64,000 bases of DNA from Hydrogenovibrio kuenenii DSM 12350 (lineage in GTDB: Bacteria; Pseudomonadota; Gammaproteobacteria; Thiomicrospirales; Thiomicrospiraceae): NCBI RefSeq assembly GCF_000526715.1, contig NZ_JAGP01000001.1, forward strand, positions 1,736,001-1,800,000. Direction: 5' to 3'. The translations under genes and the position numbers were made by a program. The notes below the pieces were generated by a model. That model ran no database searches, was not told the origin of the DNA, and saw only the letters and a program-made list of their open reading frames with translations. This document shows, one piece after another, positions 51,293-64,000 of this stretch. Numbering within the stretch: the stretch's first letter is position 1; each line of letters begins with the position of its first letter.

Positions 51293-51320
51293 TTGATAAT
51301 TTTTAGCCCGCCCCTATAAT
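51293..51320 (+). promoter_or_regulatory. Promoter of tRNA-Pro
   Basis: TTGATA (51293-51298) and TATAAT (51315-51320) are 16 bases apart and end 14 bases before the tRNA, matching five and six positions of the sigma-70 hexamers. The spacer is GC-rich near the -10. Confidence 0.8.
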
Positions 51321-51334
51321 ACAGATTCAATTTT

Positions 51335-51411
51335 CGGGGCATGGCTCAGCCTGGTAGAGCACCGTCATGGGGTGGCGGGGGTCGTAGGTTCAAATCCTAC
51401 TGTCCCGACCA
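51335..51411 (+). tRNA. tRNA-Pro (anticodon GGG)
   Basis: A 77-nucleotide cloverleaf. The acceptor arms CGGGGCA and TGTCCCG pair, the D arm is GCTC/GAGC, the anticodon stem is CCGTC/GGCGG with loop ATGGGGT giving anticodon GGG, and the T arm is GTAGG/CCTAC around TTCAAAT. The CCA end is encoded. The sequence composition changes immediately after it, marking it as the probable integration site of the downstream island. Confidence 0.96.
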
Positions 51412-51466
51412 ATAAAATCAACAAGTTACACAAAACCAACCCCTTCATATTTTATCTTCAAAATAA

Positions 51467-51488
51467 AAAAGTCGCCAAAAAGTCACCA
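51467..51488. repeat. Tandem 11-bp repeat downstream of the tRNA
   Basis: AAAAGTCGCCA (51467-51477) is followed directly by AAAAGTCACCA (51478-51488). Adjacent direct repeats of this size just inside a tRNA-bounded island resemble integrase arm-binding sites; this is an inference, since no integrase gene is in view. Confidence 0.55.
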
Positions 51489-51513
51489 TGATTTGACCTT
51501 CTCTTATTTCATA

Positions 51514-51948
51514 TCAGTGCGATATTGAAAGCATAACTACCAAAATTTCTATATTGATTAAAACCCCTAAGCCAAAGAATAAATACAATAATTTAGAATT
51601 TTTTTGAGAAGCTAACAGAATTGCATTCATTTTTGATACCAAAAGCCCACTCTGTTTCTCCAGGCTTTTTTTAGATTCAAGAAGTATTACAGTATTTAAA
51701 TGGATTTCCTTTAGTAATTCTTGCGTAGATCTATGATTTTTATTTTGTTTATTTGAAAAATAATCAGCTTGATAAATTTGTGTTAATAGATGCAAAAATA
51801 ATGGGTTATTTTTATCCAAACCAGCTAGTAACTTTTTCATATCTTTTTTAGGAACTGGAAATTTATCTCCATACATTTCAAATGCTATATCTTTGAGATG
51901 CAAAGGAACATTTAATCCTTTCATTATAATTTTTATATCTTCATTCAT
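51514..51948 (-). CDS. Small tail-anchored-like membrane protein, unknown
   Basis: I do not recognise this 144-residue protein. It starts at the ATG at 51948, with GGAG six bases upstream (the frame continues to 51969). The body is helical and lysine-rich, with LLKEIHLNTVILLESKKSLEKQ likely a coiled coil near residues 78-105. A single hydrophobic helix close to the C-terminus (LLYLFFGLGVLINIEILVVML) would anchor it. It is the first gene of the island, runs toward the tRNA and is AT-rich. Confidence 0.6.
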   Translation of the reverse strand: MNEDIKIIMKGLNVPLHLKDIAFEMYGDKFPVPKKDMKKLLAGLDKNNPLFLHLLTQIYQADYFSNKQNKNHRSTQELLKEIHLNTVILLESKKSLEKQSGLLVSKMNAILLASQKNSKLLYLFFGLGVLINIEILVVMLSISH

Positions 51949-52083
51949 ACCAAACTCCAATAAATTCACTCTTATTGCGTTCAGCTTATAAAATTTTTTT
52001 AGAAAAAACTGAATTTGCTTTTTTTCTTACAAAATAAAAAAAGGAACAAAATCTTTTCATCTTCAATTCAAATTTGAAAAAAA

Positions 52084-52153
52084 TAATTAAATTAAATAAT
52101 TATTTTTTTAATTAATTTAATTAAAAAATGAATTAAATTCGGTAAATTTAATT
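52084..52153. repeat. AT-rich inverted repeats with AATTAAATT motifs
   Basis: TAATTAAATTAA (52084-52095) and its exact complement (52112-52123) form 12-bp arms around 16 bases. A second hairpin follows: AATTAAATT (52131-52139) and AATTTAATT (52145-52153) with a five-base loop. The shared AATTAAATT motif makes four copies in 70 bases. Confidence 0.7.
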
Positions 52154-52515
52154 AATAATCTATTTTTTGAAATTCTTTTCAATTTTTTTCTCCCAATTAA
52201 TGAGACTTATTTTTTTACTGAAGTAATCTAAATTTAATGATTAAAAAATTCCATCTTATACCTATATTCCTCCCCCTGAAGTGTCTAAATTAGATTGCGC
52301 CTAAAGTAGTGGGCTTACAACTTCCGTGAACTATTTTCTGACACCATCTCGGTTAGTCTTTGAAAAAATATTTTCTTAACTAATTGCATACTTTTTACAA
52401 ACAATTTACATACAAAATGCAAACAATAATTCTCTCAAAACCCAGAACCAATGCAGGATACAGAAGATTTCAGGTACGTATTAAGAAGCCATGTTAGGGT
52501 ATGATGTTTTCCAGA

Positions 52516-52576
52516 CCTGGGGTGCCAGGCACAGTAGGAAAGTAGGAAAGTAGGAAAGTAGGAAAGTAGGAAAGTA
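52516..52576 (+). repeat. Small hairpin followed by five 8-bp tandem repeats
   Basis: CCTGG-GGTG-CCAGG (52516-52529) overlaps the palindromic GTGCCAGGCAC (52522-52532). Directly after it come five perfect copies of GTAGGAAA (52534-52573) and a partial sixth. GTGCCAGGCAC-like palindromes often flank REP-type elements, but no transposase is here. Confidence 0.75.
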
Positions 52577-52701
52577 AAGGGTAATAGTAATGACATATTT
52601 TTATTAAATGACCTTTTTAAAAATCCTATTTAAAAAAAATTAATTAATTTGTAAACTCGAAAAAAGAGAAAAATCAAATAAATTTTTTTGGGTACGAATA
52701 A

Positions 52702-52902
52702 ATGAAAAATAAAATTGAAAAAGAACTCCTAAGACCCGCTGAAGTTTGTAGTTTACTTGGCATTGCTCTAAGTCACCTAAATAAGCTTTCTGAGTGTGAT
52801 CCCAATTTTCCACGAAAAATGATTATTAGCCCTCGCTTCACAGCATATCGAAAATCATCAATTTTCAAATGGCTAGAACAAAAAGAACGGGGAGAGTATT
52901 GA
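52702..52902 (+). CDS. AlpA-family helix-turn-helix regulator
   Basis: A 66-residue protein with the MerR/excisionase-like winged helix of AlpA regulators: LLRPAEVCSLLGIALSHLNKLS, FPRKMIISPRFTAYRKSSIFKWLEQ. AlpA proteins of integrated elements control excision or element gene expression. Its stop shares one base with the next start (TGATG), so the pair is translationally coupled. It supports the view that the region is a mobile island. Confidence 0.82.
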   Translation: MKNKIEKELLRPAEVCSLLGIALSHLNKLSECDPNFPRKMIISPRFTAYRKSSIFKWLEQKERGEY

Positions 52903-53444
52903 TGAAAAAAAGAATAAATTTAACTGAGCAACAAAATATTGTACTGGTATGCATACAATCAACTATTAGTAATGATGGAAAATTTTTAATTCTAAGATTT
53001 ATGGATAATCATAAAATGTCTCCATACATTTCTTTTTTCAACTTACTAACACAGAAAAGTGGAAACTCAACTTCAGCACCCGATAGCTACATACGAAGAT
53101 TATACAGATTAACTCTAGGTGTCGATGTGGGCAAGGGTACCAAAAGCTATGCTCGTAATTTCTCTGGGGATTTAATTGGAAAAAAGTTCATAGGCAATGA
53201 CTTGATGGCTTATAAAGCTCACGAAGATACAATAAAAGTAAAAAAATTAACTCCGCTCAATCCAATTTTCGAAGGAACTAGTTGGACTGCCCTAGGGCAC
53301 TTAATTGGTGTAAAAAGAGGTCCATACCATAGAAACTCGACCTCAAGACCTTTGAGCACTTCCATTAATAATGAAAGCGTATTATCTAATGTTTCAAATG
53401 AAGAATTTTGTTATTTTGATCCTAGCCCTGAATATGTTTTTTAA
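52902..53444 (+). CDS. Unknown 180-residue island protein coupled to AlpA
   Basis: I do not recognise this protein. The ATG at 52902 overlaps the stop of the AlpA gene by one base and has GGGGAGAG upstream; a longer frame back to 52869 would lie inside the AlpA gene. The product is soluble and basic, with SYIRRLYRLTLGVDVGKGTKSYARNFSG in the middle and NPIFEGTSWTALGHLIGVKRGP later (quoted only as landmarks). No signal peptide or membrane segment is seen. AlpA-linked genes of satellite elements often encode replication or packaging-control proteins, but nothing here proves that. Confidence 0.65.
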   Translation: MKKRINLTEQQNIVLVCIQSTISNDGKFLILRFMDNHKMSPYISFFNLLTQKSGNSTSAPDSYIRRLYRLTLGVDVGKGTKSYARNFSGDLIGKKFIGNDLMAYKAHEDTIKVKKLTPLNPIFEGTSWTALGHLIGVKRGPYHRNSTSRPLSTSINNESVLSNVSNEEFCYFDPSPEYVF

Positions 53445-53536
53445 AGTTGAAGCAGATTCAATTCTCGATTTTAGTTCCATGCTGTTTTTTACCTAAACCT
53501 TGACCAGGCTAGTTTTAAACTAACCATATCGTTTGA

Positions 53537-56500
53537 TTAAATTGAGTCTGTAGTAATTTTTTCAAAAATCATATCAAGCACGATTTCACCAAACAAACTA
53601 CGAACTTTATCCTGCGAAAGAACCTGAGTTGCCATTGAACTATGGCGTTCCATAGATTCGGCAACAGCCATCATTAACGCTTGAGGAAAATCGGTTAGTC
53701 CAACTTGGTCACGAGAGTTGTTTTTGAGTTGTGTTGTCACAGTTTTATTTTCCATTACTTTGTCGGTAATGGTTCGAGCAAAGTTAACCATATCATCATC
53801 CGTTAAATCACCTGAAAACACCTCGTTGAGCTGATTTACAATATTTTCTATGGTGTCAGTCTTCTTCTCAGATGCAGTTGCTGTTCCTGATTGAGTTGGA
53901 TCGAGTTTTGAAGACTCTAAACCGATGTCATGTTTTTTCTTATTTTTAATACTGTAATGCGTCAATTCAACATCGGTTAAATCTATTTTGTTTTCAATGT
54001 TTACTGTTACCAACTGCGGAGCTAGACCACGACAATAGGCAGACAGCTTTTCTAGTTCGGTATCTTCATAAGGATTGATTTGAGAAAGGAACTCATACAT
54101 ACGAACAAACTGTGTCAGACGCTTCTTAAAGCGATCCAATGAATCTTTGTATTCCTTAGCATCTCTAAGTTCTAATTCAGCGTTATGAATGGCAGCTTCA
54201 TTATTAGCCGCTTTTGCTGTTTCTAGTCGGTCTCTAACCGACTTCACTTCAAGCAATGCCGTTTTATAGCGAGTTTTGAATCTATCAGCGCCAGGCTTCA
54301 CGGCTGCTGACATCGCTTCTTGTTTGCCTTTAGGGTCGAAATAAGCTTCCGCAAAATCATCTACTTCTTTTTGAGTGAAAATGTTTTCCGCTTCTAACTG
54401 CATCTGGATTTCAAAAACGATATTGGGGTCTGTAACATCTGACAGCATCGTAGTTTCATAAAAAGGGCTGAAAGCTTCCTTGATTTCTTCTGGCGAGTTT
54501 CTGAAATCTATAATAAACACATCTTCCTTACCAGGATAAGTTCGGTTCAACCTAGCCAGAGTTTGTACCGCATCAACGCCTGAGAGCTTCTTATCAACAT
54601 ACATGGCACAAAGCTTGGGTTGATCAAACCCTGTCTGGAACTTGTTGGCTACCAGCATGACTTGGTATTCATCGGTATCAAAGGCCTTACGCATCTCACG
54701 TCCACGTAAGTTCGGATTCATGCTATGTTCCGTGTATTCCTTTTCAACGCCTTCGCCATCGTCTGCTAGTGAGCCTGAAAAAGCGACCATTGCTTGAATG
54801 CCTGAATAGCCAGAATCTTTAATGTATTTATCAAATGCCAATTTATAACGAACAGCCTCTTTTCGAGAGCTTGTTACCACCATTGCCTTAGCTTTACCAT
54901 CAAGCAGATGCATCACGTTTTCATTGAAGTGTTCTATGATGACGTAAACTTTTTGGGCAATATTATGAGGATGTAGCCTGACCCATTTAGCGATCTGAGA
55001 TTTCGCTTTGCGAGCATCCACTTCAGAGTCATCATGCGACGACAGCTTATACAGTACATCGTAAGTTGTGTAGTGCTTTAAGACATCGAGAATATAGCCC
55101 TCTTCAATGGCTTGCTTCATGGTGTAGTTATGAAAAGGCACTGGAATGTTCGTTGAAGAAGCTGGTTCGCTAGGGTTTGGTAATGTACCGAATAACTGGA
55201 GTGTTTTGTCTTTAGGTGTTGCAGTAAAGGCAAAGAAGCTGATGTTATGCGTATCCTGTTCTTCAACTGACATAGCCAACACTTCATCAGCACTTAATTC
55301 CACACCTTCTTCAATTTGTTCGGTACTCAGCACTTGTTTGAGTTTTTTCGCGGTAGAACCGGATTGCGAGGAGTGTGCTTCATCCGCAATAATCACAAAG
55401 CTTTTGTCTTTTAATGAAGTCGTCTTTTGGATTTCTTCTAAGACGAATGGGAAGGTTTGTATCGTAACGACAATAATTGAAGCTCCATCCCTGAGTGCTT
55501 CCGCCAGTTTAGTTGATTTACTACCACCGGACTCAGCACGAGTTATTGCATGAACCACACCGCGAGTTCTTTCAAACTGAGCAATGGTATCCTGTAACTG
55601 AGAATCGAGGACATTACGATCTGTCACGACTATCACTGTATCGAATATACGTTTGTTGTCTGCGTTGTGTAGAGCGGACAACTGATGAGCAGACCAAGCT
55701 ATCGAATTCGATTTCCCTGAACCCGCTGAGTGCTGAACAAGGTAACGCTTGCCAGCACCATTATCATAAACATCGTTCAATAACTTTCGTACCACATCCA
55801 CTTGATGGTAACGAGGGAAAATCATGGTTTCTGACTTGTATTTTCGTCCTCGTGCGTCTTCTTTTTCTTGGACTTCCAGATGAATGAACTTGCCTAAGAT
55901 TTTCAGGAAGGTATCTTTAGATAAGATGTCTTTCCAAAGATAATCTGTCGCATAGCCGTCAGGATTTAGAGGATTGCCTGCACCACCGTTATTGCCTTTG
56001 TTAAAAGGGAGAAAGTAAGTGCTTTTTCCTGCCAGTTTCGTTGTCATATAGACTTCATCGGTACTGACTGCAAAGTGAACCAGTGAGCGTTTTTTAAAGG
56101 CTAGCAGAGGCTCTTCTTGTTTGGTGAGCGTATCAACGGATAATCGGTCTTCTTTGTATTGATTAATTGCATCCCAGACGTTTTGGGTAAAGTCCGTTTT
56201 TAACTCTAAGGTCGTAACAGGAATCCCGTTGACGAATAAAACAAGGTCAATTGAGTTTTGATTGTTTTCAGAGTAATAAACCTGACGAATGACTCTTAAG
56301 ATGTTTTTGTCGTATTGAGTTTGAAGCTCATCTGAATGCAAATCCGGCTCAAATTGACATAAACGCAATCGGACATTCACATCTTTGATTTCATTTCGAA
56401 GGCAGTGCAAAGAGCCGTGGTTATCAAGCTGTCCAGCAACGAATTTGACTAAAGCTTGATCGGTGTCTTTTGCATGACGTTTTTGAAACTTCTCATATTG

Positions 56501-56650
56501 CTCTGGTTGAGTGTTTTTTACAAAAGCAATGACATCATCAGGGTAAAGAGCTAAGGCTTTGTCATAGCCCTTAGAATCGCCTTCAATCCACTGAGTGGAG
56601 CAGAGGCTATCGACTATTTCGGTTTCAAAGACTTTTTCTTTATGCTTCAT
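53537..56650 (-). CDS. hsdR: Type I restriction endonuclease subunit R
   Basis: HsdR is the ATP-dependent translocase and nuclease of the type I complex; it cleaves unmethylated foreign DNA away from the recognition site. The 1037-residue protein has the PD-(D/E)xK nuclease with Asp135 (SIDLVLFVNG) and the ELK at 149-151, then helicase motifs: Walker A QHSAGSGKSNS near residue 306, ADEAH at 422-426, motif III FTATP and motif VI QTLARLNRTYPGK. A helical C-terminal assembly region follows. It is the last gene of the operon, 22 bases after the embedded membrane-protein gene. All catalytic residues are intact. Confidence 0.97.
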   Translation of the reverse strand: MKHKEKVFETEIVDSLCSTQWIEGDSKGYDKALALYPDDVIAFVKNTQPEQYEKFQKRHAKDTDQALVKFVAGQLDNHGSLHCLRNEIKDVNVRLRLCQFEPDLHSDELQTQYDKNILRVIRQVYYSENNQNSIDLVLFVNGIPVTTLELKTDFTQNVWDAINQYKEDRLSVDTLTKQEEPLLAFKKRSLVHFAVSTDEVYMTTKLAGKSTYFLPFNKGNNGGAGNPLNPDGYATDYLWKDILSKDTFLKILGKFIHLEVQEKEDARGRKYKSETMIFPRYHQVDVVRKLLNDVYDNGAGKRYLVQHSAGSGKSNSIAWSAHQLSALHNADNKRIFDTVIVVTDRNVLDSQLQDTIAQFERTRGVVHAITRAESGGSKSTKLAEALRDGASIIVVTIQTFPFVLEEIQKTTSLKDKSFVIIADEAHSSQSGSTAKKLKQVLSTEQIEEGVELSADEVLAMSVEEQDTHNISFFAFTATPKDKTLQLFGTLPNPSEPASSTNIPVPFHNYTMKQAIEEGYILDVLKHYTTYDVLYKLSSHDDSEVDARKAKSQIAKWVRLHPHNIAQKVYVIIEHFNENVMHLLDGKAKAMVVTSSRKEAVRYKLAFDKYIKDSGYSGIQAMVAFSGSLADDGEGVEKEYTEHSMNPNLRGREMRKAFDTDEYQVMLVANKFQTGFDQPKLCAMYVDKKLSGVDAVQTLARLNRTYPGKEDVFIIDFRNSPEEIKEAFSPFYETTMLSDVTDPNIVFEIQMQLEAENIFTQKEVDDFAEAYFDPKGKQEAMSAAVKPGADRFKTRYKTALLEVKSVRDRLETAKAANNEAAIHNAELELRDAKEYKDSLDRFKKRLTQFVRMYEFLSQINPYEDTELEKLSAYCRGLAPQLVTVNIENKIDLTDVELTHYSIKNKKKHDIGLESSKLDPTQSGTATASEKKTDTIENIVNQLNEVFSGDLTDDDMVNFARTITDKVMENKTVTTQLKNNSRDQVGLTDFPQALMMAVAESMERHSSMATQVLSQDKVRSLFGEIVLDMIFEKITTDSI

Positions 56651-56672
56651 TTTTGAAATCTCTAAATTTTGT

Positions 56673-58235
56673 TTATCTTCTGGTTAGTCGTTTAAATGCC
56701 ACAATGGTCATCCATGAAAAAATTGACAGAAACACGCCAAAGAATAAAGATATAAACTCATAGTTTTTCTTTAATAAAGGGCCTATTATTAAACTGCCTG
56801 CCCAATGGTTAAGGCTGTCAATGAAGTACCTAACGAATGATGTATCTCCATTAATCGACAATAAAGGGAGTTCATCAACATATTTTGAATAAGCTATAGC
56901 AGCGACAATACTAATTACAAGAATAGCAGCAACAGGCCTAAAAATACTTTGCCCAAAGTTTGAGAAAAATTTGTTGAACCAGAAAATACCTTTTTCCACA
57001 TAATGACCTTTTTTGATTGATAAGTCTCTACGATAACATTCCATTTCGAACGCAAAAAATTTATTGGCTTCAAGAAAATTACCGACATCATCAAAAGAAT
57101 GTTTAATAATTCTAAAGGTTTCTCTAGGGGACTCTTCATCTACTTCAGCTTTGAGAAAATTAGGTGGCACTTCAAAATTCGCTTTTTCGATATCTAAACC
57201 AGATAGAAATTTTGAGTCTCTGAACGAAGATAAGCTTTTGAAAGTTACATATTGGAAAATAGTCTTTGTACTACTTTTTAAGCATGTGACATTTTCATAT
57301 GCAAAGAAGTCGCCATATATACTTCTTTTTGCGACAAACAACGTCTTGAAAATTGCACCATGGAAATCACATACCTTTTCGAAATTACAGTTGCTTTGCA
57401 TAAAAATATTACACTCAACCCCTTTCATCTCAAACTTTCCTTTAAATATAGAATCTTTAAGAATAATAGCTTTAAATATTTGCTTAAATTTATCCCCTGA
57501 ATTTAACTTCAGGCTCCTCTCTAAAGAACAGTTTTCAATAATTAAAGCTGGTATAAATTCATTGTGTTTTGTAAATAATGCGATATTACAAAATACGTTC
57601 AAGTTCTGTAGTTTTAGATATGACGAAAACGCACACTCATCAAAGATTGAAGTAAGCGAAGGCTCACCATCAGATGGGGTTAAACGAACTGATGTATTTT
57701 TAACTAAAATTGATTTATGGAAAGTGCAATCATAAAAATATTCGTTATAAGTGCGAGTCTGTTCTTGGCTTTCTTCTGAGGTTAATACTTTTGCATAAAC
57801 TCCAACCTCTACTTTAGTAAGGAACTCACAAGAATGGTAAAGAATTTTTGTGTTAGAACTAAAACCTTTAAATACTTTTTTTAAGTCATTGGATGTTGTT
57901 TGATCAGTGAACTTACAATCAACAAAAGTTATCTGTTTTAAGTAGCGTATAAAGTTTCTATTTTGGTTATTTCCGAATAGCGTAAACCCTTGTATTTCAA
58001 GAGTAACTTTGGATAGTTCTTCTACTAATTTCTTATAAGTTGCATATTCTGCCGGATGCTCTTTTTGCTTTTTTCTTAAAAAAACTTTAGGTGAATTTGA
58101 TGTCAAACTAACAATTAAGTCTGCATGTAAAATATCTTGAAACCAACTTTCATGCAAAAAAGAAAAAGCCTGTTCAACGATAGACCTCAATGGTTCATCA
58201 CACTTAAAACCGTTTACTATTTCATCGAAAGTCAT
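56673..58235 (-). CDS. Pentapeptide-repeat-like membrane protein embedded in the hsd operon
   Basis: A 520-residue protein between hsdS and hsdR on the same strand. It starts at the ATG at 58235 (or the GTG at 58241), overlapping the end of hsdS. About residues 100-370 show irregular every-fifth-residue Phe/Leu patterns, for example FKGKFEMKGVECNIF and CDFHGAIFKTLFVA, consistent with a right-handed beta helix of pentapeptide-repeat type. A helical segment (RETFRIIKHSFDDVGNFLEA) then leads to two transmembrane helices near residues 433-455 and 494-514. I cannot assign a function. Its coding sequence looks more AT-rich than hsdR and hsdM, suggesting later insertion. Confidence 0.7.
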   Translation of the reverse strand: MTFDEIVNGFKCDEPLRSIVEQAFSFLHESWFQDILHADLIVSLTSNSPKVFLRKKQKEHPAEYATYKKLVEELSKVTLEIQGFTLFGNNQNRNFIRYLKQITFVDCKFTDQTTSNDLKKVFKGFSSNTKILYHSCEFLTKVEVGVYAKVLTSEESQEQTRTYNEYFYDCTFHKSILVKNTSVRLTPSDGEPSLTSIFDECAFSSYLKLQNLNVFCNIALFTKHNEFIPALIIENCSLERSLKLNSGDKFKQIFKAIILKDSIFKGKFEMKGVECNIFMQSNCNFEKVCDFHGAIFKTLFVAKRSIYGDFFAYENVTCLKSSTKTIFQYVTFKSLSSFRDSKFLSGLDIEKANFEVPPNFLKAEVDEESPRETFRIIKHSFDDVGNFLEANKFFAFEMECYRRDLSIKKGHYVEKGIFWFNKFFSNFGQSIFRPVAAILVISIVAAIAYSKYVDELPLLSINGDTSFVRYFIDSLNHWAGSLIIGPLLKKNYEFISLFFGVFLSIFSWMTIVAFKRLTRR

Positions 58236-59517
58236 AGTCACTCACATTAATCTTTCCAGTAACAGCAGCAGAGATTAAAGCGGTTTTGCGTTCTTTGAGC
58301 AGTTCTATTGCTTGCTGGGATTTATCAATTAGAGTGTCGATTTTTTGGGTTTGGTTTTTAAGATATCCTACAATTTGACTCTGCTCATCAATATTCGGTA
58401 GAGGAAATTTCATTGGTTCAATGTGTTTATTATTTATTTGAGGTACCGTTGAAACATCCGCGATATCACTTAAACCTCTAAGTTTTAACAAATAGGCAAC
58501 GTACTCTGGCAAAACTTTGTTGCTTAACTCCCACCCCATCAAGTTTGGGTCAATGAAAGATTTGTCATTAACAATATTCACTTTGTTAGTAAAAATTGCG
58601 GCCCCTCTTTTGGGAAAAACAACATAATTAGATTTTGCTCTACTTGTTACAACTAAAGAACTATCGACAAAGAACTGTTTTTCCGATATTTCAAATGAGT
58701 CAAGTGACAAGCTTGATACTTTGATAAAAGGAATATCCCCAAAATTATTTATCAATTCTTCATTAATTGACTCCGAACCGAACAATTTTCCTAAATAACC
58801 ACACTTCACAACCTCCCAATGCTCAGGCACCTCTCCCAACCATTCAATCCCCGAATCTTTCATTGGCACATCAAGATTCAAACCTTTAGTGACCGCATGA
58901 CCAATTACCGCTTTGCGTTTTTCTTTAAGCAGCTCAATCAGCTTTTGTTGCTTTTCAATCAGGGTGTCGATTTTGTGGGTTTCACGGTCGAGGAAGTTGG
59001 CGATGGATTTTTGTTCTGCCTGACTGGGAACAGGTATCAAAATATTCTTCATTTCTGAATAGTTCGTGCTCCACAAGTCAGCTACAATCCCTTTACCGAA
59101 CCTATAAAATTCTTCTTGAAATGGCTGGCTTTTTAGCAAGTGAAGAGCATACTGAGGAACAAAACTTCTAGGCTGGAGGACAATACTTATTAAAGAAACA
59201 GAGCCTTCCAGTGCTGACAAACCAGAAGAACCTTTTCTATCAGAACGGCTATTTATAACAAAATCACCAATACACACCTTTTTACGGTTATCGCCAGCAT
59301 CAGTCTTTGCCGCATTATCAAGCTGCGGAACAATTCCATTTTTTGTAACCGATAATGGAGGGAACTCAGTATCGTTTACCTTTTCTCTTCGTTCTACAAA
59401 ATACTGACCCAATCGGCTTAGCTGCCAACTTTGTGGAATTCTGCCCAGCCAATCTAGCCCTGTTTCAAAATACTCTGAATATAGCTTATGTTTACCCCGT
59501 GTGATTAATTCTGACAT
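58222..59517 (-). CDS. hsdS: Type I restriction-modification specificity subunit S
   Basis: HsdS determines the bipartite DNA target for both methylation and restriction. The 431-residue protein has two target-recognition domains, opening with GLDWLGRIPQSWQLSRLG near residue 18 and GIEWLGEVPEHWEVVKCG near 222. Each is followed by the conserved helical spacer: ETHKIDTLIEKQQKLIELLKEKR and QTQKIDTLIDKSQQAIELLKERK. The start codon shares one base with the hsdM stop (TGATG), and the 3' end overlaps the embedded gene. The recognition sequence cannot be read from the protein. Confidence 0.96.
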   Translation of the reverse strand: MSELITRGKHKLYSEYFETGLDWLGRIPQSWQLSRLGQYFVERREKVNDTEFPPLSVTKNGIVPQLDNAAKTDAGDNRKKVCIGDFVINSRSDRKGSSGLSALEGSVSLISIVLQPRSFVPQYALHLLKSQPFQEEFYRFGKGIVADLWSTNYSEMKNILIPVPSQAEQKSIANFLDRETHKIDTLIEKQQKLIELLKEKRKAVIGHAVTKGLNLDVPMKDSGIEWLGEVPEHWEVVKCGYLGKLFGSESINEELINNFGDIPFIKVSSLSLDSFEISEKQFFVDSSLVVTSRAKSNYVVFPKRGAAIFTNKVNIVNDKSFIDPNLMGWELSNKVLPEYVAYLLKLRGLSDIADVSTVPQINNKHIEPMKFPLPNIDEQSQIVGYLKNQTQKIDTLIDKSQQAIELLKERKTALISAAVTGKINVSDYDFR

Positions 59518-61475
59518 CAGGCATGCACCTCTTGCAGAAGCTTTAGAATATCCGCCGTGACCGCATCTAAATCGGCATCAATGTCTTCAAGTGGGCGTGG
59601 TGGTGTGTATTCATAGAAATGGCGGTTAAAGGGAATTTCATAACCGACAATACCAATTTCACCATCTAAAGCATCGGTTTTGCCTTCGTCTATCCAAGCA
59701 TCGGGAACATTAGGCAAAACTTCACGCTTGAAGTATTCATGAATATCTTCTTTAAGTGGGACGTTTTCGTAGTCGCGTAAGTCTGTGTTCGCTTCTGGTT
59801 TGCCTTTTTTGTCCAAACAGATTTCTGCTTCATCATCATGTTCAGAGATATGTTTTTGAATCAGCTTGAATTGAGCAGCCGTTAGTTTAACCTTAAACCC
59901 TTTCAGAAACGCCTCACGACTCAAAAATTTGTTTTGCGACAGATTACTCAAGTTTTTCAAAATATCCGCTTGTAGGCCACCTGAGAGCTTTTGAAAGGCA
60001 TTGTCCTCGTTAAGATTGGCAATACGTTCTTCATCATGCGGATAAAAAGCTAACTGAAGTGGCCTTTCAACCGTAATTCGTCTAAACCCAAAATCTTCTG
60101 TATCGAATATCTTTGAAATCTTCGATTCTTCAAACCCGCCATAGATGCGAATAATGTCGTTTTGTTGTTCTTCGGAGATTTCTTTACGTTTAGAGCCTAA
60201 GGACTTTCTCATGGGAACGAAAAGGTTGGTGGCGTTAATGAGTTGAACTTTTACTTGCCTCTCTTCCTCTTTTTTGTTCGACAAAATCCAGATGTAAGTC
60301 GCTATCCCCGTGTTGAAGAACATATCGGTTGGTAAAGCAACGATGGCTTCTAACAAGTCATTTTCAAGAATATAACGTCGGATTTCAGATTCACCCGACC
60401 CTGCACCACCAGTGAAAAGAGGAGAACCATTCAGAATAATACCTATACGGCCACCGCCATTTTGTACCGCTTCCATTTTTGATACCAAGTGCATCAAAAA
60501 TAACATAGAGCCATCAGATACTCTTGGAAGGCCAGGGCCAAAACGTCCTTCAAAGCCTTTTTCGGTATGTTCGGCTTTTATTACCTTTTCGACCTTTTTC
60601 CAGTCCACACCAAAAGGAGGGTTGCTTAAGCTGTAACTGAATTTCTTGTCATAAAGCTGGTCATCTGACAAGGTGTTGCCATGCTTGATGTTTGTAATGT
60701 CCTGCCCCTTGATAAGCATGTCTGCTTTACAAATTGCATAGGACTCGCCATTCAATTCCTGACCAAATAGAACGAGCTTGGCTTTGTCATTAATTTCGTG
60801 AACATATTCACTACCTGATGATAAGAATCCACCTGTCCCAGCAGTCGGGTCATATAGACTTCTAACCACGCCTTCTTTGGTGAGAATTTCATCATCAGAG
60901 GCAAAAAGCAGTGCCGTGGTGAGCCTTACCGTATCACGAGGGGTAAAGTGCTCTCCAGCAGTTTCATTTGAAGCTTCAGCAAATCGTCTAATCAAATCCT
61001 CAAACACCAAACCCATTTCATGGTTTGAAACTTTATTTGGCGATAAATCAAAAAAGGCAAACTTCTGCACAACCTCGAACAACAGGTTGTTGTCATTCAA
61101 GAATTGAATTTGCTCAGTGAACTTGTACTTTTCAAATACTTCTCTCGAGTTTGCGCTAAAGCCTTGGATATAGTTTTCGAGGTTCTGAAGAAGGTTGTTC
61201 GGATCGGCGAGAAGTGTTTTTAGATTGAATTTTGAGGTGTTATAAAACTGATGGCCGGATTTTTGTGTGAGGAAAACATCAAGAGGAACACCAAGGTCTT
61301 TCTTGGTTTGATATTCTGATAAAACCGCATCTTTTGTTAGTTCTAAAACAGACTCTAATCTTCTTAACAAAGTAAAAGGTAAAATAACTTTACCGTAATC
61401 AGATTGTCTATATTCGCCACGAAGTAGGTCGGCTACCGACCAAACCATTGATGACAAGCTTGAGAAGTTTTCCAC
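59517..61475 (-). CDS. hsdM: Type I restriction-modification methyltransferase subunit M
   Basis: HsdM methylates adenine in the host DNA at the HsdS-defined site. The 652-residue protein has an N-terminal HsdM helical domain ([23 protein letters not shown]), the AdoMet-binding motif I in [10 protein letters not shown] at 209-218 and the catalytic motif IV NPPFG at 285-289, the N6-adenine type. The start is the GTG at 61475, with GGAG five bases upstream. It is the first gene of the hsdM-hsdS-X-hsdR operon; its promoter should lie in the AT-rich gap to 61668. Confidence 0.97.
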
Positions 61476-61668
61476 TTAGGCTCCATACTAAAATTTCGAA
61501 TTTTAGTTATTCTAGTCAAAAAAGCCTGTATGGTGAATGTAAAACATGAAAACTTGAAATATCGTCTGGAATTACACGACTATTTCAAGATTAACCAAAA
61601 TTGAATTGGCTCATAATTTTTTGGCCTGAATTTTAACTATGAGCCTATCGTAAGAGAATAGCGCAATG

Positions 61669-62508
61669 TTACTTCATCAGGTGCTTATAAAATTCCTGAA
61701 TATAATCTTTGCCATAAAAGTAGATCTCATCAACGAATATTTTTTCATTTAATAAAATTGGAGAATTTTGTTTTACAAAGGAAACACTTGAGAGAGATAT
61801 ATACAAAACTAATGCCACCACACTAAACGAAATAAGTTCGATGGCGCTTTGCTTAATAGAAAATTTATTTAGTTCATTCAACGCTTTTTCATATTCATAT
61901 CGGGTTACAGCATTATTTTTCCTATACTCCGAGTAAGTTTCCATAATTGCGCTAAATGTTGAATGCACGCTATCATAATTCGAAGCAGGGAACTTAAACT
62001 GCAAAAAAGGTTTTTGGGGGTTGCTAAAACGAATTGTCAGAATACCGAACCGTTTTACATTTACATGAGGAATCCCTGAGGGGCCAGTATATTCGGCTGT
62101 TTTACTCTTAGTTTCACCTTGCCATTTCGTAATGTCTTTGAGATAAAAACAACCGAATTCATTCATGTGATTACGATAAACGCCTAAATCTTTTGAAAAA
62201 TCAAAAAATAGATAATAATCACCTACTTTCATAGCTTGATTATGAACAAAACCAGTAATCAATGCGAATTTTTTAAACTTAGATTTATTTTTAATAAATT
62301 CTGGAAGAAATAACAGTACCCCAACAAGAAACAACGAAACACTTATTAAAAAGAACATAACAAGTGTCCCTGAGCCTTTTAATCCATCTTCTCCATTTAA
62401 CAGAAAAGCAACAATCGTAATTAATAAAAAAAGAGCAGTTGGGATTAACGCTAAACCAGCTAATCCAAAAAATATATACCCTATAAGCTTAAGGAGCTTA
62501 AAAAACAT
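61669..62508 (-). CDS. Unknown membrane protein of the island
   Basis: A 279-residue protein I cannot assign. Two N-terminal transmembrane helices (about residues 10-37 and 48-69) are followed by a soluble, probably cytoplasmic domain of about 140 residues, with LFFDFSKDLGVYRNHMNEFG in it. A third hydrophobic helix lies near 222-243 (SAIELISFSVVALVLYISL), and a short tail ends in KDYIQEFYKHLMK. AAAGGAA precedes the ATG. It is AT-rich, stands between the phosphatase/exonuclease unit and hsdM, and may be an effector or accessory gene, but that is guesswork. Confidence 0.6.
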   Translation of the reverse strand: MFFKLLKLIGYIFFGLAGLALIPTALFLLITIVAFLLNGEDGLKGSGTLVMFFLISVSLFLVGVLLFLPEFIKNKSKFKKFALITGFVHNQAMKVGDYYLFFDFSKDLGVYRNHMNEFGCFYLKDITKWQGETKSKTAEYTGPSGIPHVNVKRFGILTIRFSNPQKPFLQFKFPASNYDSVHSTFSAIMETYSEYRKNNAVTRYEYEKALNELNKFSIKQSAIELISFSVVALVLYISLSSVSFVKQNSPILLNEKIFVDEIYFYGKDYIQEFYKHLMK

Positions 62509-62663
62509 TATTATTTCCTTTTAATGTGTCTGATAGAGCTTCAAGTCACAAGTACAGCCTATGCGATTGAGCGCGTTCAGAATTCTGTGTCATTCCTTTG
62601 CGGTAATCTTCAATTTAATTAAGCGCTGATAATTTACCATATCACGACAAAACCACAAGCATT

Positions 62664-63188
62664 TTAATACACACTTTTACGCAATAGATTCCATTGCCAG
62701 ATATGCATCAATACATCGTTATTTGCCTTATGGTGAGACAATCCGTTTGATTTGAATTTTTGTCTGGCCAATAGATAGGATTTTAGAATTTGTGAGTCAC
62801 TAAAATCTAATGCTTCATATAACTCTGAAATCAATTGAAACGCCGGCATCGGATAGTTATGCCTCGTTATTTCAGCACAATCATCCAATAGCATGAACAG
62901 CCAGTTCAAATCCATATTCGAATCGGCATAAACGGTTTGCCCTTTTAGGTCTTCACTAAATTTTTCTGCAACTGAAATGGCATCTATCCCATGTTGTTTC
63001 AAATAGTCTAGATACAAGCCATGCATACTCTCAGCGTTGTAGTCCCACAAGTAAGTGTCTTTTTGCCAGACCTCCAATGGTTTGATTTCAAATGTCTTTA
63101 CATTATCCTCGCTTGAACCATAAGCGACTTGCACAGGAAATCCCTGCATTGAAGACGCCTCGAAATCAAGGAAGATGGGACTATTCAT
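62664..63188 (-). CDS. DEDDh-type 3'-5' exonuclease-like protein
   Basis: The 174-residue product carries the metal-ligand pattern of RNase T/oligoribonuclease-type exonucleases: FLDFEAS with Asp8 and Glu10, VYADSNMDLNW with Asp89 and/or Asp93, and HHKANND with His153 four residues before Asp158. The overall length is that of a single minimal exonuclease domain. Substrate (RNA or DNA ends) cannot be told. It overlaps the upstream phosphatase gene by 8 bases, so the two are translationally coupled. All five catalytic positions are plausible, so activity is expected. Confidence 0.75.
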   Translation of the reverse strand: MNSPIFLDFEASSMQGFPVQVAYGSSEDNVKTFEIKPLEVWQKDTYLWDYNAESMHGLYLDYLKQHGIDAISVAEKFSEDLKGQTVYADSNMDLNWLFMLLDDCAEITRHNYPMPAFQLISELYEALDFSDSQILKSYLLARQKFKSNGLSHHKANNDVLMHIWQWNLLRKSVY

Positions 63189-63912
63189 TTTCAGCTATCC
63201 TTACCAGTAGTTCGTCGATACTCATAAGCGTCAATTGACCGCTTCTATCAAAGGTATCGATAAAGCCGCTGTATTTTCCAAACACTGGCTTTGGAAAACA
63301 GGAGTGACCATGAATCGTATAATCTATATCCACTAAAGGTCTTTCCTTTCCATTAGCAGTATCAGCAGCATGGCGTCGGTGTCTTAGCGCTCTTTCTCGA
63401 ATGTCTCTATCCTCTAGAGCGCCAACAAACACTTTCCAGCTATCTATGTCCGGTGGCATACCGGCATGGACAATACCCAGCTTTTTACCTTTAACATTCA
63501 ACTCGATGGCAAAAGGCAGGTGCTTGAGTTTTTCTGCAACCGCTTGCCTTTGAGCATCACTTAGGTCAAAAAACCATGAACTTTCAAACAATGTTATCTG
63601 TAGATAAGTTTCTTCTGCACCATATTCTTTATAGCCGCCGGACAACATGACTCTTTCTTCCGCATAGATATCTAAAATAAATTGTTCATGATTTCCTCTA
63701 ACTGAAAAGAACCAAGGTTCATCAATGAGGGTTAGAGTTTTTAGACTCTCATCCCCCCTATCGACCAAATCCCCTACTGCAAAAAGCCGGTCTCGATCAA
63801 AATCAAACCCAGCGTGACTTAACGCATCCATCAGAGGTTGATAGCGCCCATGGATATCACCTACCAAGAAATCTCGCCCTTTTTGGTTATCAGTGAATTT
63901 CCTGACAAACAT
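63181..63912 (-). CDS. PPP-family serine/threonine protein phosphatase
   Basis: The 243-residue protein has the metallophosphatase motifs in order: GDIHG at residues 18-22, GDLVDRG at 47-53, RGNHE at 72-76, then VHAGMPP near 148 and HGHSCFP near 210. This matches the PrpA/PrpB and lambda-phosphatase group; a dinucleoside-polyphosphate (ApaH-like) hydrolase is an alternative. The ATG shares one base with the stop of another gene upstream (TAATG), whose C-terminus is similar to this protein, and the 3' end overlaps the exonuclease gene by 8 bases. Confidence 0.88.
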   Translation of the reverse strand: MFVRKFTDNQKGRDFLVGDIHGRYQPLMDALSHAGFDFDRDRLFAVGDLVDRGDESLKTLTLIDEPWFFSVRGNHEQFILDIYAEERVMLSGGYKEYGAEETYLQITLFESSWFFDLSDAQRQAVAEKLKHLPFAIELNVKGKKLGIVHAGMPPDIDSWKVFVGALEDRDIRERALRHRRHAADTANGKERPLVDIDYTIHGHSCFPKPVFGKYSGFIDTFDRSGQLTLMSIDELLVRIAENE

Positions 63913-64000
63913 TACTGAACTCCTTCACAGACTCTTTTGGCAATCTCTTCAACACTCATAATCGTTAATTCACCAGTTATATGCCCAGTGTCTATCCATA
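63912..64000 (-). CDS. C-terminal fragment of a second PPP phosphatase (cut by window)
   Basis: The last 28 codons of a minus-strand gene enter from the right edge and stop at 63912-63914. The peptide contains IDTGHITGELTIMSVEEIA, which lines up with IDTFDRSGQLTLMSIDEL at the end of the neighbouring phosphatase. This points to a tandem paralogue, with a TAATG junction to the next gene. The catalytic part is outside the window. Confidence 0.65.
   Translation of the reverse strand, partial: WIDTGHITGELTIMSVEEIAKRVCEGVQ

Follow-up and report, generated by a model that had tools for sequence, protein, structure and literature searches.

Restriction-modification (RM) operons can harbour accessory genes, the anticodon nucleases PrrC and RloC being RM-embedded examples, and pentapeptide-repeat proteins of the MfpA/Qnr group mimic DNA. 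The solved pentapeptide proteins (6fls, AlbG, EfsQnr, QnrB1 and MfpA) have about 180-220 residues and consist of a beta-helix only. One report places rloA and rloB in the hsd region of Campylobacter jejuni M1 (PMC2928727), and according to another HalA, the channel effector of the Hailong anti-phage system, is an ion channel that poly-dA adducts block (PMC13275509). Here we describe a gene of Hydrogenovibrio kuenenii DSM 12350 that lies inside a type I RM operon and encodes a predicted membrane protein with a beta-helix; it was found in a stretch of 64,000 nucleotides (the window, along which its positions are counted). Like PrrC/RloC and the rlo genes, the window gene is an optional gene inside an hsd operon. 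In contrast to the RM-embedded PrrC/RloC, its product lacks nuclease and ATPase domains (no match to any PADLOC or NCBIfam family at E<=1), and it differs from the solved pentapeptide proteins in being longer and irregular and in having a membrane module. Its relatives form a patchily distributed family without a family model of its own, and the coupling of part of this family to RM genes is well supported. Accessory genes in type I operons are known, but our literature search, which did not cover subscription papers, did not bring up a single family of membrane proteins that is coupled to the specificity-bearing gene in several unrelated types of RM, nor any account of pentapeptide membrane proteins linked as a family to RM.

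The hsdS-hsdR slot and its occupants

The window gene and the genes around it are as follows.

56673..58241, minus strand: window gene, RM-coupled pentapeptide beta-helix membrane protein, 522 amino acids (aa), GTG start
58222..58241, minus strand: 20-nt overlap of the window-gene start with the 3' end of hsdS, probable translational coupling
58222..59517, minus strand: hsdS, type I specificity subunit (Pfam Methylase_S; PADLOC Specificity_I, E 2e-117)
53537..56650, minus strand: hsdR, type I restriction subunit (Pfam HSDR_N and SWI2_SNF2; PADLOC REase_I)
59517..61475, minus strand: hsdM, type I methyltransferase subunit (Pfam HsdM_N and N6_Mtase; PADLOC MTase_I, E 4e-283)

By Pfam and PADLOC on its flanks the operon is a complete type I system in the order hsdM-hsdS-window gene-hsdR, with 22 nt between the end of the window gene and hsdR. 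An earlier note on this DNA, made from the letters alone, had placed the gene between hsdS and hsdR of a type I system, overlapping the former and 22 bases from the latter; its coordinates were exact, the overlap being 20 nt, and its proposal that the gene is expressed with the RM genes gains support from relatives that stand immediately 3' of several RM types, their frames overlapping or nearly so. Promoter and terminator scans gave a result no better than shuffled sequence.

In a close relative (G005), whose HsdM and HsdR are 77% and 74% identical to those of the window, the slot is empty and hsdR follows hsdS after 19 nt. The window gene thus has the properties of an RM-linked accessory gene, being inside an RM operon, on the same strand and optional, and the orthologous operon without it agrees with the earlier view of the gene as cargo. 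In a second relative (G008) the hsdS-hsdR interval holds a family gene, a putative membrane protein without Pfam family, T5orf172 and a Fic protein, and in more distant relatives it holds RhuM (L144) or a zeta-toxin-like gene (L147). In L145 (6641-8622) a PtuA-type ATPase gene (PADLOC PtuA, E 3e-172) stands between hsdS and hsdR, directly followed by a 221-aa gene, an arrangement that looks like a Septu-like module inside a type I operon. The occupants in L144, L145 and L147 count as known or candidate genes of defence. Since the slot is empty in G005 and holds other genes in G008 and L144-L147, the hsdS-hsdR interval is a cargo position in this group, of which the window gene is one occupant. 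A gene for a similar ATPase, judged by eye, lies between hsdS and hsdR in L146 (7786-9767).

The window gene has a GC content of 0.317, against 0.383-0.409 in the hsd genes, so the earlier remark on its AT-richness holds. Its further suggestion of a cassette insertion is weak: GC is below that of the flanking genes in 77 of the 86 family open reading frames (ORFs) measured, and because nearly the whole family is AT-rich, low GC is a weak sign of insertion.

Coupling of the family to RM genes

Single-sequence search detected relatives in 5 of 55 genomes, and profile search in 7 of 369 genomes of Gammaproteobacteria, 9 of 62 of the window's order, 55 of 298 of Campylobacterota and 8 of 296 of Bacteroidota (starting genome counted throughout); a scan of named contigs added 30 family loci, and a scan of genome contigs with the single window sequence gave no relative. 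The 67 match rows from Campylobacterota led to 60 opened places, six rows lying inside opened loci and one being L057. Ten match rows came from Bacteroidota, of which L152, L153 and L154 were opened and L059 was already included; the remaining rows stand outside the counts, and a weak match in Gammaproteobacteria (G331) lies outside the opened loci. The family set used below comprises the 128 ORFs in opened loci that match the full-family profile (A3) at E<=1e-6, some fragments and tandem copies included.

An RM gene is the immediate same-strand neighbour, within 200 nt, of 25 of these 128 ORFs and lies upstream of 24 of them, the upstream partners being hsdS (6), type IIG (14, from one clade), MmeI-type IIL (3) and type III Res (1).

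Family ORFs directly 3' of HsdS: window, L008, L012, L059, L152, L183
Family ORFs directly 3' of an MmeI-type IIL gene: L051, L052, L057
Family ORFs 3' of a IIG gene or IIG-like piece: L120, L124, L126, L127, L128, L133, L136, L137, L180, L190, L192, L193, L194, L196
Family ORF directly 3' of type III Res: L117
Family ORF with a C5 methyltransferase downstream (the one RM neighbour not upstream): L058

The RM gene was confirmed by PADLOC/Pfam at L051, L052, L058, L117, L120, L127, L136 and L137, as was HsdS for the window, L152 and L183; the remaining labels rest on BLAST to confirmed and similar references. At L128 the family gene is flanked by two IIG-like pieces, and a gene for a Snf2-like helicase lies further upstream; this locus may therefore be another kind of system. 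One gene intervenes between the IIG gene and the family gene at L131 and L135.

The junctions are tight. All 24 upstream RM gaps fall within -26 to +24 nt, and frames overlap (gap <=0) for 18 of the 24 upstream RM genes as against 14 of 77 other same-strand upstream genes (Fisher p 5.8e-7, relatedness ignored). In seven IIG cases (L124, L126, L127, L190, L192, L193 and L196) the IIG stop and the family start overlap by a single base, as TAATG, just downstream of a purine-rich stretch. For comparison, none of 285 ORFs stands directly 3' of an RM gene in 20 control regions of 20 kb at arbitrary round coordinates (400 kb, from 19 Campylobacterota genomes and G026, all carrying family loci), as against 24 of 128 family ORFs; this control sample is small and contains no RM ORF, and the RM reference set, identical for both, was partly built from neighbours of the test loci. 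Within Campylobacterota alone 16 of 72 family ORFs are RM-adjacent, and in a class survey 0 of 8. Seen from the RM side, 103 IIG match rows occur in 91 of 298 genomes; at 11 of them, by a comparison made by eye, a family gene follows directly 3', which makes the family slot optional at IIG genes too.

A possible published instance occurs in C. jejuni, where one study lists, for the phage-resistant strain CAMSA2038, the IIG gene DDV75_00180 and then a 'Pentapeptide repeat-containing protein' (DDV75_00185, by annotation only), about 400 nt apart by the listed coordinates; an AAA ATPase and a hypothetical gene stand at the corresponding place in the phage-sensitive CAMSA2002, and the resistance of CAMSA2038 is partly traced to McrBC (PMC8713573). 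In a lactococcal report, a pentapeptide gene is interrupted by a type II RM operon (PMC5896346), which is a different situation from the coupling described here.

A quick phylogenetic tree was built from 103 ORFs, 25 of the 128 having been dropped (<300 aa or E>1e-12); the dropped ORFs include the RM-coupled L117, L180 and first L193 gene. In this tree 31 of the 100 inner branches are open, and the L131 and L135 genes were hand-labelled 'IIGnear' as a separate group. Counting only branches with SH-aLRT >=95, the label must have changed at least 6 times for IIG, 4 times for type I and 3 times for IIL, each change being a gain or a loss; RM coupling has thus changed repeatedly on the tree. The RM-coupled cases are not independent, since the 12 IIG-coupled proteins on the tree all share one clade of 36.

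These patterns bear on the idea of a membrane tether, in which the beta-helix would bind HsdS or the fused RM enzyme and keep the RM complex at the inner membrane, the entry site of phage DNA. Such a tether would agree with the overlap of reading frames with the gene that carries specificity, seen for type I, IIG and IIL alike, and with a predicted beta-helix joined to membrane helices, but most relatives have no RM neighbour, the nearest tree relative of the window protein is the non-RM L030, and between the window and G008 the family proteins share 30% identity, against 73% for HsdM and 64% for HsdR (HsdS, too, shares just 36%). Given that low identity and L030, no co-evolution with one RM lineage is seen, and we regard the tether as improbable. 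With RM adjacency in just 25 of 128 family ORFs, the window protein is not an obligate subunit of RM, and the purely anchoring role that the earlier note had offered as an alternative has become less likely.

Protein architecture and a possible effector role

An AlphaFold2 model of the window protein (26 sequences, mean pLDDT 80.1, pTM 0.75) divides it into the following parts.

58008..58241, minus strand: N-terminal helical part, residues 1-78 (AlphaFold2, low confidence)
57141..58004, minus strand: beta-helix, residues 80-367 (AlphaFold2 strands; VIA-align matches to pentapeptide-repeat proteins)
57015..57125, minus strand: conserved helical linker, residues 373-409, core motif FRIIKHSFDDVGNFLEANKFFAFE (376-399) (AlphaFold2 helical hairpin and family conservation)
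56859..56942, minus strand: first membrane helix, residues 434-461 (AlphaFold2; 432-450 by hydropathy)
56796..56840, minus strand: short helix between the membrane helices, residues 468-482 (AlphaFold2)
56685..56759, minus strand: second membrane helix, residues 495-519, then basic tail (AlphaFold2; 496-514 by hydropathy)

A further helix (residues 414-427) lies in the model between the linker hairpin and the first membrane helix. The linker preceding the membrane part is the hallmark of the family: among members >=300 aa a loose form of its motif is present in 22 of the 24 next to RM genes and in 59 of the other 88, and in 0 of 112 shuffled sequences. A basic C-terminal tail is present in 107 of 111 measured members and, together with two membrane helices, suggests that both termini of the window protein are cytoplasmic; by simple hydropathy, counts of membrane segments range from 0 to 9 across the family.

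The beta-helix matches 6fls, AlbG, EfsQnr, QnrB1 and MfpA with Z scores of 11.7-13.6 (VIA-align), and by these scores and its model strands the window protein has the right-handed beta-helix of the pentapeptide-repeat fold. Beta-helix proteins of other kinds match equally or better (Z up to 15.3), so the likeness is one of fold and no proof of descent. At the sequence level, Pfam Pentapeptide_3 gives the window protein 20.8 bits, under its gathering cut-off of 27 bits, which is passed by L008 (28.5), L052 (36.2), L124 (36.9), L136 (38.2), L192 (43.0), L127 (46.3), L059 (69.7) and L196 (74.6) and missed by L009 (16.7), L051 (17.5), L012 (21.3) and L039 (23.0), with no match in L011. When the family profile is compared with PDB sequences, pentapeptide proteins come first (E 0.0028-0.038 for the first six of seven). 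A Pfam mSLOG match to the window protein (E 0.049) is at chance level, as are the phmmer matches of L012 in PDB; Foldseek found nothing at E<=0.001 for the full model in PDB and BFVD or for the C-terminal module in PDB. The irregular pentapeptide-like beta helix and the two C-terminal membrane helices that the earlier note had read from the letters are therefore both borne out, the latter by hydropathy and AlphaFold2 in agreement, with Pentapeptide_3 itself weak. An anticodon nuclease of the PrrC/RloC kind was considered and rejected, PrrC and AAA_13 domains being absent from the window protein (PADLOC, Pfam, E<=1).

A pentapeptide-type beta-helix encoded directly after hsdS could also point to a restriction regulator that mimics DNA and restrains the RM enzyme against self-damage. 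A DNA mimic is expected to be strongly acidic, but the beta-helix of the window protein has a net charge of +5 over residues 80-367 and RM-linked members average about -1.5 per 100 residues (counted from sequence, not from the modelled surface); with such charges we do not favour this regulator and hold it to be very improbable.

Two leads connect the family with channels. The first is a set of pentapeptide proteins resembling potassium channels, namely L210 of Cognaticolwellia mytili and L247-L252 from Aeromonas and haloarchaeal plasmid records (together profile A5), which align with the family over the beta-helix end, the linker and the first membrane helix. In hhalign, whose E-values refer to one comparison, the full-family profile A3 matches A5 with E 1.5e-6 and probability 90, and the C-terminal family profile A4 with E 6.9e-5 and probability 63. 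L210 alone ranks first of 230, ahead of 229 unrelated controls, with both profiles (E 8.2e-5 against 0.007 for the best control with A4, and 6.2e-4 against 0.0062 with A3); L247 tested singly with A4 gives E 0.0005. The second lead is HalA. When the C-terminal module is modelled alone (pLDDT 85.6, pTM 0.74), its first VIA match among 171 chains is HalA 9nyi (Z 6.2, rmsd 4.4, 138 of 163 residues), aligned over HalA residues 148-356; moreover, nine other family ORFs are weakly matched within their beta-helix by positions of about 27-147 of the HalA model (E 8e-7 to 0.015), which suggests that HalA and the family proteins share the order of beta-helix and then membrane module. Hailong HalA stands beside HalB, whereas the window gene stands among RM genes: no HalB-type nucleotidyltransferase is found beside it, and the seven window proteins scanned contain no nucleotidyltransferase family above cut-off (a kdsB match to HsdM, E 0.066, is a chance one). 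The family member L039 reaches 20.6 bits with the HalA model NF051894, whose cut-off of 250 bits was passed in no genome searched (0 of 40, 0 of 114).

On these grounds, and with the coupling to RM genes and the defence genes that share the slot or adjoin other family members, we tentatively read the window gene as encoding a membrane-anchored back-up effector of the RM system, at somewhat less than an even chance. The beta-helix would face the cytoplasm, and the C-terminal module, possibly a descendant, without the K+ filter, of the two-helix pore module found in pentapeptide potassium-channel-like proteins, would form a pore or depolarising channel; the helix at residues 468-482 would then take the position of a pore helix. 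The beta-helix and linker may hold the pore shut through contact with the RM complex or with DNA, and the pore would presumably open when restriction fails or when a phage inhibits it, so that membrane damage stops the infection, as proposed for HalA in Hailong. The channel nature of the protein is moderately supported at best, and its back-up role is proposed only by analogy.

A number of results weigh against this effector reading. The alignment with the potassium-channel proteins ends before the pore loop and the second helix, and of the six other A5 proteins compared one by one with A4, five give E 0.0085-0.31. The A5 proteins keep a TLGYGD-type filter (TTLGYGD in L210; three of the seven have S or N at one position), but residues 462-494 of the window protein contain no TxGYGD-type selectivity filter. 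The HalA match is weak, with a Z under 8 that is tied with 8hme (Z 6.1, 63 residues), and Foldseek places HalA 20th with E 4.2 (query TM-score 0.37, the highest of the 50 rows shown); because a Z under 8 may reflect a common arrangement, we treat this match as a lead only. NF051894 has no match to the window protein at E<=1 or in the window's genome at E<=0.1, and it matches in control genomes as well (7 of 14 at E<=0.1, 5 of 14 at E<=0.001), which makes the L039 match unspecific. As K+ filter, HalA-model match and HalB partner are all absent, the window protein was not filed as HalA. On the side of the neighbourhoods, 103 of the 128 family ORFs are not RM-adjacent, several sit among apparent housekeeping genes, 14 of the 24 upstream RM cases (all IIG) come from one clade, and the family ORF of the type III case, L117, has 221 aa and lacks a membrane segment.

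The many ORFs away from RM genes favour, instead, a mobile beta-helix/membrane gene that serves a purpose independent of RM (in stress, the envelope or a defence of its own) and lands 3' of tightly packed operons, RM operons included. Tight spacing (<=25 nt) is also seen to 27 of 77 non-RM same-strand upstream genes, and the family has repeated non-RM slots, which from the flanking proteins we take to be secF-leuS and ispE-smpB. Such a hitchhiker would not be expected to show an RM partner upstream so much more often than the controls, frame overlaps that are commoner with RM genes (relatedness ignored) or repeated changes of RM coupling on the tree, and we think it rather unlikely.

Returning to the back-up effector, the repeated attachment of relatives to different RM types suggests a shared back-up way of stopping viruses. 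In its widest form, which is doubtful, type I, IIG and IIL systems (perhaps also type III) would share one repeatedly recruited family of membrane-channel effectors, in which a cytosolic beta-helix gates a derived two-helix pore, co-translated with the DNA-recognition gene, and a membrane-killing back-up fires when restriction fails. If so, restriction would be a two-layer defence of DNA cutting and membrane killing. Should the family be a back-up effector, RM would become one of the systems that carry a second, membrane-killing layer, with a link to HalA-type channels, and the family would offer two-gene units (fused IIG enzyme and effector) that are simple to test. The earlier note's idea of a membrane effector thus finds some backing in the likeness to pentapeptide potassium-channel proteins and, weakly, to HalA, with the effector function itself still conjectural. 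That note had said that homologues mostly outside RM or defence loci would speak against it, which, taken literally, is what the 25 RM-adjacent ORFs of 128 amount to; a structure lacking beta helix and membrane helices, which it had also named, is not what the model gave. Overall its observation is confirmed and its interpretation partly supported, and the generality across RM types was not visible to it.

Other neighbourhoods and minor features

Other family members stand directly beside DarT-DarG, AAA_13, YhcG or Fic genes, and one is near McrBC. In L148 (4694-7401) the family gene lies 83 nt upstream of a DarT-DarG pair, and in L118 (8548-10523) it overlaps a nucleotidyltransferase-HepT pair by 29 nt. 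The apparent secF-leuS interval holds a family gene in L155 (Poseidonibacter) and in L110, L111, L114 and L115 (Campylobacterota); in all five a second small gene (156-164 aa) follows, which in four of them matches only the membrane part of the profile. Family genes occur three in tandem in L132, L135 and L193, the L193 set directly downstream of a IIG gene and the L135 set one gene away. Many N-termini in L031-L044 (not L033 and L041) and in L008 carry a Cys/His motif, CxxxxC...CxxHC, suggestive of a small metal site, a motif absent from the window protein.

A phage or plasmid origin was also considered and set aside: a search of 72,556 plasmid and 50,697 phage records with the window protein gave no match at E<=1e-3. 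L039 has one weak plasmid match and zero phage matches, L052 has zero plasmid matches, viral contigs scanned with profile A1 or with L210 yielded no relative, and six family members have 0 matches in PHROGs. Integration at a tRNA-Pro gene was rejected likewise, a direct repeat of the tRNA 3' end being absent from the repeats listed for 51300-64000.

That tRNA-Pro(ggg) gene (51335-51411, plus strand) adjoins a very AT-rich stretch (51500-52500, GC minimum 0.198) beside the hsd region. Upstream of hsdM, 61669-62508 (minus strand) encodes a 279-aa protein, apparently membrane-bound, with no Pfam family above cut-off and no PADLOC/NCBIfam family. A short tandem repeat with an 8-bp period, of the AGTAGGAA type, lies at 52533-52576 and is listed as four overlapping 20-nt copies.

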